Shown piece after piece: positions 10,702 to 63,833 of a DNA stretch of 64,000 nt (the stretch's first letter is position 1; each line of letters starts with the position of its first letter). The stretch is from Rhodocaloribacter litoris (GTDB taxonomy: Bacteria > Bacteroidota > Rhodothermia > Rhodothermales > ISCAR-4553). The notes beneath the pieces are model-generated. The model saw nothing but the letters and a program-made list of their open reading frames with translations, made no database searches and was not told the DNA's origin. The stretch spans positions 124,001-188,000 of the forward strand of contig NZ_CP076718.1 of NCBI RefSeq assembly GCF_011682235.2, read 5' to 3'. A program made the position numbers and the translations under genes.

Positions 10702-11088
10702 TTAGCGGGCTCCTTTCACTTTCTCCTTGTACTGCACGCCTTCGATTCCCATGAAGTCTGCGTCCTGCGTCCACAATGTAGCACCGTACCAACGCGCCGT
10801 AGCCAGAATGATACTGTCGGCCATCGGTAGCTTCAACGCCCAACTCAGCCTGGCTGCACTGATCGCCAGGGCAGCATCCAGGTCTACGACCTGCCCCTGG
10901 TGCATCTGGGCCACCGCTTGCAAGGCTTCACCCTCGCCGCGCTGCATCAGCACGCGCTTGAAGACCTCAAAGACGCTGATCGAGGGCACAATCAGCAGCG
11001 CCGTATTCTCTATGGCCTCAGCAAAGAAGTCTGCATTCGGCCCATCGGCGAAGTATTCGAGCCATCCGGAGGAGTCCACCAGGTTCAT
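10702..11088 (-). CDS. VapC-type PIN-domain toxin
   Basis: A 128-aa PIN-domain ribonuclease, the toxin of a type II pair. The four acidic residues expected for the Mg-dependent active site are present: Asp5 (MNLVDSSGW), Glu41 (VFEVFKRVL), Asp91 (LPMADSIILATA) and Asp109 (WTQDADF). Its start overlaps the antitoxin stop by 4 bp (ATGA), the usual coupling for such pairs. Its base composition is less GC-rich than its neighbours, which suggests acquisition. VapC toxins usually cut tRNA; the target here is unknown. Confidence 0.9.
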   Translation of the reverse strand: MNLVDSSGWLEYFADGPNADFFAEAIENTALLIVPSISVFEVFKRVLMQRGEGEALQAVAQMHQGQVVDLDAALAISAARLSWALKLPMADSIILATARWYGATLWTQDADFMGIEGVQYKEKVKGAR

Positions 11089-11294
11089 AGGACACGGTCT
11101 GGCTCGCGCTCAACGGTGGTATCAATGCCTTTGAGAAAGCCCCGCAACTGGCGCATGGGCCTGACCGGCACGAGTTCAATGCGGTTGTCATAGAGCAGGA
11201 CTTCCACCTGTTGTCCGGCTTTGAGTTGGAGTTTTTCCCGGACCTGCTGTGGAATGACGACCTGGAATTTAGGGGAAATCTTAACCGTTGGCAT
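11085..11294 (-). CDS. AbrB/SpoVT-type antitoxin of the PIN toxin
   Basis: A 69-aa swapped-hairpin AbrB-family antitoxin with the typical N-terminus PTVKISPKFQVVIPQQVREKL, a DNA-binding fold that also autoregulates the operon. The C-terminal tail (about 45-69) would wrap the toxin. I chose the Met at 11294; 13 further residues are open upstream but do not fit the family. Confidence 0.88.
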   Translation of the reverse strand: MPTVKISPKFQVVIPQQVREKLQLKAGQQVEVLLYDNRIELVPVRPMRQLRGFLKGIDTTVEREPDRVL

Positions 11295-56871: not shown

Positions 56872-58635
56872 ATGCAAACCCGAATCCTGACCGCCGGAAG
56901 CCTGTGGGCGGTCCTGCTGATGCTGATCACCGGCACAGCCTGCGCCCAGGATGCCGACGACGCCCCCCCGGCGACGACCAACCGGACACCGACCGTCTTC
57001 GACGCCCCGGCGATCGTGCAGCGCTATCAGGCCACCATCACACCGGAAGACCTGGCGGCCCACCTGTACCTGTTCGCCTCCGACTTCTTCGAGGGGCGGG
57101 AGACGACCACGCGCGGGCAGAAGCTGGCCGCCCACTACCTGGCCGCGCAGTACCGCAAGATGGGCCTGGCCCCGAAAGGCACCGTCGCCACCGACGACCC
57201 GCTCGCACCGGAAGCCTACTTCCAGCCCTTCACCGTCCACGGCCGGCGGCTGAAGAAGGCCGAACTGGCCGTGAAGGTCGGCGGCGCGACCGTGGCGACG
57301 AGCACGTTCGCCCCGCCCGCCTATGATGCCGACGCCTTCCTGTCCTTCGGCGGCGCGCCCGAAGTCAGCGCCGGCGTGGTCTTCGCCGGCTACGGCATCG
57401 CCGACGACGGCCTCGGCTACAACGACTACGCCGCCCTCGAGGCGCAGGGCATCGCCTACCAGGATCGCTGGCTCCTGATCCTCCGCGACGAGCCGCTCCG
57501 CGACGCGGAGACGAGCCGGCTACCCACCGAAGACGGCAAGCCCTCCGCCTGGACGACCGGCGGCAGCACGAAGCTCCGCTACCTGTTCCGTGCCGGCATG
57601 CCGAAAGGCATCCTCATCGTCGGCGACGTCGGCCCCCGCGCCGAGAAGAGCGTGGCCGGCCAGGCCGCCGAGGCCGCCGGACGCACCAGCGTCGGCAGCC
57701 TGTCGCTCGAACCCCAGGGCGGCGGTTTCCGCTTCCCTCCCGTCTACATCATCTCCTCCGACCTGGCCGACCGCCTGCTGGCCCCTACCGGCCGCACCGT
57801 GGCCGAGGTGAAGGCCGAGATCGATGCCCACCTCGCGCCCGTCGTCTTCGCCGTCGAGGACGTCACCGTCGAGAGCCGGATCGAGCACGAAGCCTTCCAG
57901 GCACAGACCGAGAACGTGCTGGCCTTCATCGAAGGCACCGACCCGCTGCTCAAGGACGAGGTGGTGGTCCTCTCCTCGCACTACGACCACGTGGGCATGA
58001 CCAGCGGCGAGGGCGACACCATCTACAACGGCGCCGACGACGACGGCTCGGGCACCGTCGCCATCCTCGAGATCGCCGAGGCGTTCGCACGCGCACGCGC
58101 CGACGGATACGGCCCGCGCCGCTCCATCCTCTTCCTCAACGTCAGCGGCGAGGAAAAGGGACTGCTGGGCTCGGCCTACTACGCCGACGAGGAACCCGTC
58201 CTCCCCCTCGAGAAGACGGTGACCAACCTGAACATCGACATGATCGGTCGCCGCGACCCCACCTACCCCGGCAACCAGCCCGACAACTACGTCTACATCA
58301 TCGGCTCGAACCTGATCTCGCAGGAACTGCACGACCTGAACGCACGGGTGAACGAGGTCACCGGGCTGAAGCTGGACCTGCACGAGCGGTTCAACTCGAA
58401 GGACGACCCGAACCAGTTCTACCGCCGCAGCGACCACTGGAACTTCGGCAAGCACAACATCCCGTTCATCTTCTATTTCAACGGCACGCACGAGGACTAC
58501 CACGGCCTCGACGACGAGCCGGACAAGATCGACTACCCGCAGCTGGCCCGGCGCGCGCAGCTGATCTTCGCCACGGCCTGGCAGGTGGCCAACCAGGACA
58601 AACGGCCGGCCGTGAGCGGGAAAGGGTTCAACTGA
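56872..58635 (+). CDS. M28-family zinc peptidase, exported
   Basis: A 587-aa peptidase with a signal peptide (about 1-25, ending TACAQ), a PA-like inserted domain (about 130-290) and an M28 catalytic domain (about 340-560). The two-zinc ligands are in SSHYDHVGMT (His), NGADDDGSGT (Asp), NVSGEEKGLLGS (Glu, and the catalytic Glu), NIDMIGRRD (Asp) and RRSDHWNFGKHNIPF (His). It should cut peptides outside the cytosol; specificity is unknown. A strong terminator follows at 58659. Confidence 0.94.
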   Translation: MQTRILTAGSLWAVLLMLITGTACAQDADDAPPATTNRTPTVFDAPAIVQRYQATITPEDLAAHLYLFASDFFEGRETTTRGQKLAAHYLAAQYRKMGLAPKGTVATDDPLAPEAYFQPFTVHGRRLKKAELAVKVGGATVATSTFAPPAYDADAFLSFGGAPEVSAGVVFAGYGIADDGLGYNDYAALEAQGIAYQDRWLLILRDEPLRDAETSRLPTEDGKPSAWTTGGSTKLRYLFRAGMPKGILIVGDVGPRAEKSVAGQAAEAAGRTSVGSLSLEPQGGGFRFPPVYIISSDLADRLLAPTGRTVAEVKAEIDAHLAPVVFAVEDVTVESRIEHEAFQAQTENVLAFIEGTDPLLKDEVVVLSSHYDHVGMTSGEGDTIYNGADDDGSGTVAILEIAEAFARARADGYGPRRSILFLNVSGEEKGLLGSAYYADEEPVLPLEKTVTNLNIDMIGRRDPTYPGNQPDNYVYIIGSNLISQELHDLNARVNEVTGLKLDLHERFNSKDDPNQFYRRSDHWNFGKHNIPFIFYFNGTHEDYHGLDDEPDKIDYPQLARRAQLIFATAWQVANQDKRPAVSGKGFN

Positions 58636-58658: not shown

Positions 58659-58698
58659 AAACAGCGGGCGCGGTCGTATCTTGCCGCGCCCGCTGTTT
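58659..58698 (+). terminator. Terminator after the M28 peptidase gene
   Basis: A 15-bp stem (AAACAGCGGGCGCGG paired with CCGCGCCCGCTGTTT) with a 10-base loop, followed by a T-rich run (TTTCATTTTCC). Confidence 0.88.
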
Positions 58699-58720
58699 CA
58701 TTTTCCATCTCCCCATCTGC

Positions 58721-58737
58721 CATGCGTGACCGTATCC
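58721..58737. repeat. Duplicated start of the M20 gene, left copy
   Basis: 17 bases (catgcgtgaccgtatcc) identical to 59859-59875, where they are the first codons of the M20 amidohydrolase. The upstream bases are also alike (ttttccatctcccc / ttttcccatccccc). Here the frame ends after ten codons (MRDRILALQL). It marks the left edge of the toxin-antitoxin islet. Confidence 0.75.
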
Positions 58738-58753
58738 TTGCTCTGCAACTTTA

Positions 58754-58781: not shown

Positions 58782-59090
58782 ATGGTATTCATCGAGTCCA
58801 GCCGGTTCAGTGACCGACGAAGGCGTTATCTAGATGACGACGCCTTTCGGTCCTTGCAAAATCTCATCTTGATGCATCCCGAACAGGGTCGATTGATCCG
58901 TGGGGGGCGCGGCCTGCGCAAGATCCGCTTCGCTCCTTCTGGCCGGGGTAAGAGCGGTGCCTTCCGCGTGATTTACTACCTGGCCGTGGGTGAATCGATA
59001 ATCTACCTGCTGGACCTCTATTCAAAAAGTGACAAAGACGACCTGACGCCCGATGAGATAAAAGCCCTGGCGGCTCTGATCAAACCATGA
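58782..59090 (+). CDS. RelE/HigB-type toxin
   Basis: A 102-aa RelE/ParE-superfamily protein, the putative mRNA-cleaving toxin of the pair. The pattern RGGRGLRKIRFAPSGRGKSGAFRVIYYLAVGESIIYLLDLYSKSDKDDLTPDEIKAL is typical of the RelE members paired with HTH antitoxins. It comes first in the operon (toxin before antitoxin, as in higBA) and overlaps the antitoxin by 4 bp. Its base composition is less GC-rich than its neighbours. Confidence 0.88.
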   Translation: MVFIESSRFSDRRRRYLDDDAFRSLQNLILMHPEQGRLIRGGRGLRKIRFAPSGRGKSGAFRVIYYLAVGESIIYLLDLYSKSDKDDLTPDEIKALAALIKP

Positions 59091-59389
59091 CGAACTTCGA
59101 GAAAGAAACCCCCTTCGAGCGGTTGAAAGCTTCCATCGAGGAGATGAACGCGCACCGCGCCGGCCGGAGCGAACTGCCCCCGGAAAACATTCATTTTGCC
59201 GGTGAGCCTGACCCCCGCCAGATACGGGCTCAGATGCAGCTTTCGCAGGAGGACTTCGCGCACGTGCTGGGGATCAGCGTTCGCACGCTGCAGAACTGGG
59301 AGCAGGGGCGACGGCGGCCGACCGGTCCGGCCATGAAGCTCCTCCGGATCGCAGAGCGCCACCCCGAACTTTTGCTCGAAATGGCCTGA
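59087..59389 (+). CDS. HigA/NadS-like HTH antitoxin
   Basis: A 100-aa protein with a C-terminal helix-turn-helix (about 47-85; QIRAQMQLSQEDFAHVLGISVRTLQNWEQGRR) and an N-terminal part that should mask the toxin. Its start overlaps the toxin stop (ATGA). It probably represses the operon by the palindrome at 58754-58770. Confidence 0.9.
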   Translation: MTNFEKETPFERLKASIEEMNAHRAGRSELPPENIHFAGEPDPRQIRAQMQLSQEDFAHVLGISVRTLQNWEQGRRRPTGPAMKLLRIAERHPELLLEMA

Positions 59390-59496: not shown

Positions 59497-59724
59497 GTGA
59501 CCGAAACAACCATTCTCCAGAAGCTCCGGGCGCTTCCGCCTGATAAACGGCAGGAAGTAATCGACTTCATCGACTTTCTTCTCCAGCGTATCGCACCGCC
59601 CGCCTCACAGCGGACCACGTTCTACGGTCTCTGGTCCGACCTGAACGTCGACCTCTCCGCCGACGATCTCGACGCGGCCCGCCGCGACACGTGGAACGAT
59701 TTCCCCCGTCCCGACCTGCCATGA
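59497..59724 (+). CDS. DUF2281/VapB-like antitoxin, toxin lost
   Basis: A 75-aa protein of the DUF2281 group (LQKLRALPPDKRQEVIDFIDFLLQR), which usually precedes a PIN toxin. It overlaps the start of the VapC remnant by 4 bp (ATGA). GTG start at 59497; an inverted TGCCA...TGGCA repeat (59469-59487) just before it may be its operator. As the toxin is broken it is an orphan antitoxin. Confidence 0.85.
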   Translation: MTETTILQKLRALPPDKRQEVIDFIDFLLQRIAPPASQRTTFYGLWSDLNVDLSADDLDAARRDTWNDFPRPDLP

Positions 59725-59823
59725 GCCTCCTGCTCGACACCCACGCGGCGGTCTGGTTTGAATGTTCCGCTGGTTACCCGAGATCACAAAATTCGGCTCT
59801 CGGACATTGAAACAGTCTGGTAG
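59721..59823 (+). pseudogene. VapC PIN toxin with its middle deleted
   Basis: The start codes for MSLLLDTHAAVWF, the N-terminal strand of a PIN domain with its first Asp. Then a different frame (from about 59758) codes for LNVPLVTRDHKIRLSDIETVW and a stop at 59823, which is the C-terminal end typical of the same family. About 90 residues that should lie between are missing and the frames do not match. In the first frame translation stops about 29 residues after the start. Confidence 0.8.
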
Positions 59824-59858
59824 GCTGTCAACCGACCTGCTTTTCCCATCCCCCCTGT

Positions 59859-59875
59859 CATGCGTGACCGTATCC
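59859..59875. repeat. Duplicated start of the M20 gene, right copy
   Basis: The partner of 58721-58737. Here the bases are the real start of the M20 amidohydrolase (ATG at 59860). Confidence 0.75.
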
Positions 59876-61062
59876 GAGCCCTGGCCGACGAGGTGTTCCC
59901 CGAGGTCGTCCGGCTGCGGCGGGCGATCCACCGGAACCCGGAGCTGGCCTTCGAGGAGCACGAGACGGCCCGCCTGGTGGCCGAGACGCTGGCGCCGTTG
60001 CCGCTGGAGGTGCAGACGGGCGTGGCCCGCACGGGCGTCGTCGCCACGCTGCGGGGCGGGCGGCCCGGCCCCACGCTGGCCCTCCGCGCCGACATCGACG
60101 CGCTGCCCATCCACGAGGAGAACACCTTCGACTTCGCCTCGCAAAACCCGGGCAAGATGCACGCCTGCGGGCACGACGCGCACACGGCCTCGCTCCTGGG
60201 CACGGCCATGATCCTGGCCCGCCTGAAAGACGACTTTCCGGGCACGGTGCGCTTCCTCTTTCAGCCGAGCGAGGAGAAGCTGCCGGGTGGCGCGCCGGCA
60301 ATGATCGAGGCGGGCGTGCTGGCAGCCGGTCCCGGCTACCCCGCCCCCGAAGCCGTCTACGGACAACACGTCCGTCCCGAGTTGCGGGCCGGGCAGATCG
60401 GCGTCCGCGCCGGCTGGTTCATGGCCTCCGCCGACGAGCTGTACCTGACGGTGCGGGCCGCGGGCGGCCATGCCGCCGAGCCGCACCGCCTGCCGGGCGA
60501 CGCCGTCCTCGTGGCCGCCCACCTGGTCGTGGCCCTGCAGAGCGTCATCAGCCGGCACCGCCCGCCCGGCGTGCCGAGCGTCCTCTCCCTCGGCCGCCTC
60601 GTGGCCGACGGCGCCACCAACGTCCTCCCCGCCACCGCCCGCCTGGAGGGCACATTCCGCGCGATGGACGAGGCCTGGCGCCTCCGGGCGCACGACCTGA
60701 TCCGCCGCGTGGCCGTCCACACCGCCGCCGCCCACGGCGCCGAGGTGGACGTGGACCTCGTCGTCGGCTACCCGGCCCTGTACAACGACCCCGCCGCCGC
60801 CGCCCGCGTCCGTGACGCCGCCATCGACTACGCCGGCGCCGAAAACGTGGTGGACGTGGAGCCCTGGTACGCCGCCGAGGATTTCGCCTACTACCTCCAC
60901 CAGGTGCCCGGCTGCTTCTACCTCCTCGGCGTGGGGAATCCGGAGGCCGGCATCACGCACGCGCTCCACACCTCCCGCTTCACCATCGACGAGGAGGCCC
61001 TGCGCCTGGGCCCGGGTTTCATGGCCTACCTCGCCTGGCGCCACGCCACCGAAGCCGCCTGA
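59860..61062 (+). CDS. M20D-family amidohydrolase
   Basis: A 400-aa metallo-amidohydrolase of the hippurate hydrolase / N-acyl-amino acid hydrolase group. Motifs are LRRAIHRNPELAFEEHET at the start, LRADIDALPIHEEN, the zinc Cys-His in MHACGHDAHTASLLGTA near residue 105, the Glu pair in FQPSEEKLPGGA and the last His in ITHALHTSRFTIDEEALRLG. It has no signal peptide, so it is cytosolic. The substrate is not known. The next M20 gene starts 14 bp later, so the two are probably cotranscribed. Confidence 0.95.
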   Translation: MRDRIRALADEVFPEVVRLRRAIHRNPELAFEEHETARLVAETLAPLPLEVQTGVARTGVVATLRGGRPGPTLALRADIDALPIHEENTFDFASQNPGKMHACGHDAHTASLLGTAMILARLKDDFPGTVRFLFQPSEEKLPGGAPAMIEAGVLAAGPGYPAPEAVYGQHVRPELRAGQIGVRAGWFMASADELYLTVRAAGGHAAEPHRLPGDAVLVAAHLVVALQSVISRHRPPGVPSVLSLGRLVADGATNVLPATARLEGTFRAMDEAWRLRAHDLIRRVAVHTAAAHGAEVDVDLVVGYPALYNDPAAAARVRDAAIDYAGAENVVDVEPWYAAEDFAYYLHQVPGCFYLLGVGNPEAGITHALHTSRFTIDEEALRLGPGFMAYLAWRHATEAA

Positions 61063-62258: not shown

Positions 62259-62301
62259 ACGTTTGTGCGTTGCACGTTGAACGTTGAACGTGATGCGTTT
62301 G
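62253..62301. repeat. Heptad array, left half of an inverted pair
   Basis: Units in register are ACGTTTG, (8 bp), ACGTTGA, ACGTTGA, ACGTGAT, GCGTTTG. It begins at the last codons of the M20 gene and faces the array at 62345 in opposite sense. Confidence 0.75.
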
Positions 62302-63786: not shown

Positions 63787-63833
63787 GGTCGACGTTACAC
63801 GTTGAACGTTATACGTTGAACGTTGAACGCATT
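63787..63833. repeat. Heptad array after def
   Basis: Six units in exact phase from 63792: ACGTTAC, ACGTTGA, ACGTTAT, ACGTTGA, ACGTTGA, ACGCATT. It is the cleanest of the arrays. Confidence 0.85.

Follow-up and report, generated by a model that had tools for sequence, protein, structure and literature searches.

An orphan DUF2281 antitoxin gene beside a truncated vapC gene in a toxin-antitoxin islet at an M20 peptidase gene of Rhodocaloribacter litoris

In a 64-kb window of Rhodocaloribacter litoris DNA (the whole stretch analyzed here), a 1.1-kb islet lies between an M28 peptidase gene and an M20 peptidase gene. It consists of a RelE-HTH toxin-antitoxin (TA) pair and an orphan antitoxin gene with a remnant of the toxin gene vapC (Table 1). 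The orphan is a DUF2281 protein in the role of VapB. As an earlier sequence-only reading of this DNA had stated, it is intact, and it includes the C-terminal part that is kept in intact pairs. Its stop codon (TGA, 59722-59724) overlaps the start codon of vapC as ATGA. From 59721, the codons ATG AGC CTC CTG CTC GAC ACC CAC GCG GCG GTC TGG TTT encode MSLLLDTHAAVWF, the N-terminal fragment of VapC. The C-terminal fragment, LNVPLVTRDHKIRLSDIETVW, is read from 59758 in a frame that differs by +1, and ends at a TAG codon (59821-59823).

Table 1. Features of the islet and its neighbours in the window, and broken toxin genes and TA islets at other loci (L) of the same genome
Feature	Location	Strand	Basis or remark
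M28 peptidase gene, left neighbour of the islet	56872..58635	+	Pfam PF04389, E 1.9e-37; adjoins M20 in relatives
Hairpin with T-rich tail, probable M28 terminator	58659..58698	+	Loop holds CGCGGTCGTATCTTG, common to the M20 leader of G001
Left copy of duplicated M20 start	58701..58745	+	Exact 17 bp at 58721-58737; reads MRDRILALQL, then stop; 37/45 identical to right copy
RelE-type toxin gene (predicted), full length	58782..59090	+	Pfam PF06296, E 1.8e-7; relatives align over residues 1-101
HTH antitoxin gene (MqsA/Xre-like), partner of RelE	59087..59389	+	Pfam PF15731, E 4.5e-11; PF01381, E 1.7e-10
DUF2281 antitoxin gene (VapB role), intact, 75 aa, orphan	59497..59724	+	Pfam PF10047, E 1.2e-8, above cut-off; 43-48% identical to antitoxins of L098-L102
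N-terminal vapC remnant, 12-13 codons	59721..59757	+	Profile positions 2-15
C-terminal vapC remnant, 21 codons and stop, +1 frame	59758..59823	+	Profile positions 112-134, E 9e-6
Right copy of duplicated M20 start, begins the working gene	59842..59883	+	Exact 17 bp at 59859-59875
M20 amidohydrolase/peptidase gene, intact, right neighbour	59860..61062	+	Pfam PF01546, E 1.1e-42; 76% identical to G001 from residue 1
PIN gene with stop and frameshift	L009 1520-2084, C1 about 1516 kb		Behind open 73-aa ORF without Pfam match
VapC gene frameshifted after codon 12	L008 rc 1380-1845, C1 about 266.5 kb		Behind open 87-aa ORF
HepT gene, frameshifted	L243 17243-18068, C1 about 2942.5 kb		Nucleotidyltransferase partner intact
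VapBC islet	L007 1313-2250, C1 about 2909.0-2910.0 kb		42-bp repeat, 54/56 extended, intergenic hairpin
VapBC islet	L008 1407-2267, C1 about 266.5-267.3 kb		36-bp repeat (42/43) = 3' end, stop included, of TANGO2-family gene
DUF4258 and MqsA/YgiT-like zinc-finger protein islet	L234 3235-3910		34-bp repeat; MqsA match weak, E 0.003
Nucleotidyltransferase and small partner, probable TA only	L240 1394-2306		51/54 repeat, end of uvrA-like gene
HepT-nucleotidyltransferase islet	L243 17243-18109		42-bp repeat, end of carB
HicBA islet	L272 2512-3581		38 and 25 bp exact in longer duplication, end of SDR gene

When genome contigs were scanned with the antitoxin alignment, relatives that match the antitoxin over its full length came from Phormidesmis (L098), Obscuribacterales (L099), Leptolyngbyaceae (L100), Bryobacterales (L101), and Leptolyngbya (L102); scans of genome and viral contigs with single-protein queries gave no match. 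Directly after the antitoxin gene, L098, L100, L101, and L102 have an intact PIN protein of 133-134 aa. These are the intact DUF2281-PIN pairs for which a search had been proposed from the sequence, and all four were aligned. A profile of the four PIN proteins was searched against the six frames of the window. The C-terminal fragment was the top match in the window (E 9e-6, model positions 112-134 of 134), while the best E value in block-shuffled windows was about 9. The N-terminal fragment, which lies directly 3' of the antitoxin gene, matched profile positions 2-15; by itself it is too short for significance (E 0.9). A Pfam search gave no match for either fragment, and no PDB chain matched the PIN relative by sequence. 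Together, the reading frames and the profile bear out the description of 13 N-terminal and 21 C-terminal PIN residues joined out of frame, and both parts belong, as had been proposed, to one family, since both match the subfamily that partners the relatives of the antitoxin. The missing part had been put at about 90 codons; the internal loss is confirmed, and by comparison with the relatives model positions 16-111 (approximately 96 codons) are gone. The gene is 103 nt long here and 402-405 nt long in the intact relatives, and is thus 299-302 nt shorter. Of the four acidic positions conserved in this PIN subfamily, the deletion removed two and left a third out of frame; the toxin is thus dead, and with approximately 96 codons gone and the frame broken the locus does not hold an intact PIN toxin with the four acidic residues. 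It does hold the DUF2281 antitoxin of a VapBC (DUF2281-PIN) system. This antitoxin, complete and adjoining a context without a working toxin, is an orphan antitoxin of a degraded TA locus.

DUF2281 pairs are known from the SIO2C1 VapC/DUF2281 pair, which was tested in Escherichia coli (PMC12654330), and from Ssr8013/Slr8014 of Synechocystis (PMC4963859), and neutralization of the toxin by the antitoxin was shown for these pairs (PMC12654330, PMC4963859). As in VapC/DUF2281 type II pairs, the DUF2281 antitoxin gene of the window is located directly 5' of the PIN toxin gene and overlaps it. However, the toxin gene is alive in those pairs and dead in the window. Orphan antitoxins are common, as a Klebsiella survey (PMC7192599) and a marine survey (PMC12654330) have shown. 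Like the orphans of degraded TA loci in these surveys, the antitoxin described here has no working toxin but keeps the old toxin context, whereas the toxin remnant in the window is readable at both ends.

At the 5' border of the deletion, all of the four intact relatives have W followed by Y, and at the 3' border they have ALHLNVPL or a similar sequence. The joint reads TGG TTT GAA TGT in the window, and the corresponding codons in L100 are CAT TTG AAT GT. Judging from these codons, the TTT at the joint (the codon of F13) may be common to both sides, may belong to the 3' side, or may have been made by the joint. A search for a short direct repeat at the joint had been proposed, and none was found in the window; with the L100 codons in place of the ancestor, the microhomology may amount to 0-4 nt, and a longer repeat in the ancestor itself is conceivable. 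No sister strain with an intact vapC gene at this site was found, and thus the deletion is recognized by comparison with relatives that are about 45-60% identical.

The islet around the pair had been missed in the sequence-only reading. The islet is bracketed by a direct duplication of the start of the M20 gene, the core of which, CATGCGTGACCGTATCC (17 bp), has exactly two copies in the 4.5-Mb genome. The gap between the M28 and M20 genes is 1224 bp here, compared with 10-115 bp in 11 relatives of the same order and 256 bp in a twelfth (L027). Thus, the site is empty and single-copy, with M28 and M20 adjoining, in 11 relatives; in G001, the only genome of the same family, the two genes are not adjacent. 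The left copy of the M20 start is preceded by an apparent old leader of the M20 gene. From this anatomy we infer that the TA islet was inserted at the 5' end of the M20 gene, and that the approximately 45 bp present on both sides kept this gene whole. The islet gave no match to any RNA family.

We consider it likely, with a probability of about three in four, that the islet was inserted at the 5' end of the M20 gene, that a later illegitimate deletion of approximately 300 nt killed vapC, and that the antitoxin persists without a function as an antidote. One or more insertion events would have brought in DUF2281-VapC and RelE-HTH, as the anatomy of the islet and its neighbours suggest. The deletion, as judged against the intact relatives, would have used little or no microhomology, removed approximately 96 codons, and shifted the frame. 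Several circumstances may explain why the antitoxin is still present. The toxin of a pair can disappear while the antitoxin is still there, but not vice versa; decay of the toxin first is the economical reading, because a cell that lost the antitoxin first would be left exposed to the toxin. Furthermore, the deletion seems to be recent. The C-terminal remnant is identical to the intact relatives at 12-15 of 22 positions, and L101 is identical to the others at 10-12 of 22-23. Since the remnant shows no visible drift beyond the differences among the intact relatives, little time may have passed since the deletion, and the orphan antitoxin would be too young for its intactness to be informative about selection. 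Linkage to the intact, predicted RelE-HTH pair, another reason for retention that came into view with the islet, should also penalize loss of the islet.

The sequence-only reading had offered two explanations for the loss of the toxin with retention of the antitoxin, namely decay and selection for an antidote against a homologous toxin. With a remnant as fresh as this one, ordinary recent decay of the toxin is probably the better reading, and antidote selection found no support. Nevertheless, an antidote role of the antitoxin is possible: the antitoxin could be kept for anti-addiction against VapC toxins of plasmids, phages, or other strains. Its completeness, including the C-terminal part, agrees with this idea, anti-addiction by a chromosomal ccd system has been demonstrated (reviewed in PMC2654758), and orphan antitoxins of Klebsiella can function (PMC7192599). 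However, the profile of the PIN subfamily revealed no close intact homologue or paralogue of vapC in the genome, either as a source or as a target. The genome has seven other PIN loci, and the best intact one, which has its own antitoxin, scores 22.6 bits with the profile of the DUF2281-partner PIN proteins. In plasmid records, only two weak DUF2281 matches were found, both of them adjoining PemK/MazF toxins, and the islet DNA had no match in plasmids or phages. Moreover, the remnant is too fresh, so retention of the antitoxin needs no explaining. We thus regard the antidote explanation as improbable.

Another explanation is that the antitoxin or the region upstream is kept for regulation of the transcription of the M20 gene, which it would supply or repress, the islet having cut off the old leader. 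In fact, 1.1 kb separates the working start of M20 from the old leader and the hairpin terminator, which lie on the left side of the islet. However, no promoter-like site was found, and the DUF2281 protein has no recognized DNA-binding domain here, so this explanation appears slightly less probable even than the antidote. The GC content of the C-terminal remnant is 47%, compared with 61-68% for the antitoxin gene and the N-terminal part. This difference would also fit a chimera, in which remnants of two different vapC genes were joined by a larger deletion. Such a fusion was rejected as very unlikely, because the subfamily matched by both ends is the one that partners the relatives of the antitoxin; the two ends and the antitoxin match one type of pair (L098, L100-L102), and L100 has the same codons at the 3' border. 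An assembly or sequencing artefact is the least likely explanation, for although two other broken toxins of the genome are single-base frameshifts, which can be errors, a clean loss of approximately 300 nt without a repeat at the joint would be an unusual assembly error, and the genome is one contig with 99.9% completeness.

The recent deletion of vapC by an illegitimate event, which we favour, has possible counterparts elsewhere in the genome. At three further loci, a broken toxin gene (PIN, VapC, or HepT) adjoins the open reading frame of a partner; the single-base frameshifts in VapC and HepT could be sequencing errors. In another genome (G123; L049 and L206), a cluster contains Phd-PIN and a DUF2281-PIN pair that is broken in both genes, with RelE-HTH adjoining.

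At least five other TA modules of this genome (VapBC twice, DUF4258/YgiT-like, HepT-nucleotidyltransferase, and HicBA) are located between direct duplications of 30-90 bp, mostly at the ends of host genes. Except for the two VapBC modules, these came from a scan of forty 20-kb stretches at even spacing, in which we looked for exact direct repeats of at least 17 bp lying 300-2500 bp apart and dropped those spanned by one open frame. A nucleotidyltransferase with a small partner is probably a sixth such module, and a DUF2442 gene between an 18-bp repeat is possibly a further one. Apart from one clear non-TA case, before metH, the remaining matches of the scan were gene duplications and unexplained short repeats. 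Clear bracketing repeats were absent from five other PIN loci of the genome. In local alignment of the flanks, the islet of the window scored 47 and the other TA islets scored alongside 68-102; random flank pairs scored 30 at the 95th percentile and 58 at the 99th, although the top ones are probably the same islets. In other genomes, bracketing repeats of at least 16 bp were found at 10 of 79 TA loci and at none of 50 M20/M28 control loci. This excess is only suggestive, as the ten include tandem TA copies and attC-like repeats as well as the islet of the window itself. We rejected the possibility that the islets are integron gene cassettes: their repeats are not an attC common to cassettes, each islet has its own repeat, mostly a local host gene end, and attC-like repeats were found only in other genomes (L052 and L058).

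Insertion of restriction-modification genes with long target duplications has been reported (Nobusato et al. 2000; Furuta et al. 2010; both as cited in PMC3874152 and PMC3031569). According to these citing accounts, direct duplications that vary in length flank a small addictive unit at host genes, as they do here; in the present genome, the cargo is TA modules and the duplications are about 34-90 bp. In Microcystis aeruginosa PCC 7806, a fenced ParDE-like TA pair behind a host gene is bracketed by identical direct repeats (PMC7935541). Unlike the islet in the window, this module is intergenic and its repeat is 152 bp long with an inner inverted repeat. The open literature searched contained no case of TA modules of several families in the pattern of long target duplication in one genome.

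A truncated toxin alone is routine, and the islet setting of this one is more useful. One genome carries at least six TA islets of several toxin families, two of which, besides the present one, have an apparently dead toxin. We suggest, quite tentatively, that TA modules of several kinds spread in this lineage as islets of the size of a TA module, whose insertion, mostly at the end of a host gene, leaves a duplication that varies in length. Between such repeats an islet could be lost precisely and the toxin would prevent this, so that the death of the toxin (vapC here, and apparently VapC and HepT in two other islets) would start the loss. Such a set of islets would make the old question of whether addiction stabilizes small chromosomal insertions against loss accessible to direct comparison and excision experiments.

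Some other observations were made during the analysis. A non-TA insertion of a similar kind, a beta-propeller gene with a gene for a small cysteine-rich protein, is present before metH (L266, 4410-6360), with a 112-bp duplication of the metH start (109/112). In genome G020 (L003), a DUF2281-PIN pair is located directly behind carB, the gene that hosts the HepT islet in R. litoris, and no bracketing repeat was found at this VapBC locus. The window also contains an intact PIN toxin gene on the minus strand (10705-11109) with a MazE/AbrB-type antitoxin gene upstream, and a simple-looking repeat, ACGTTGAACGTTGAACG, at 62274-62290 and 63813-63829. Finally, one PIN locus (L253, 5450-6300) is beside what looks like a CRISPR array with the 36-bp repeat ATTTCAATCCTCATCCGCCCCGGAGGGCGGATGCGA.
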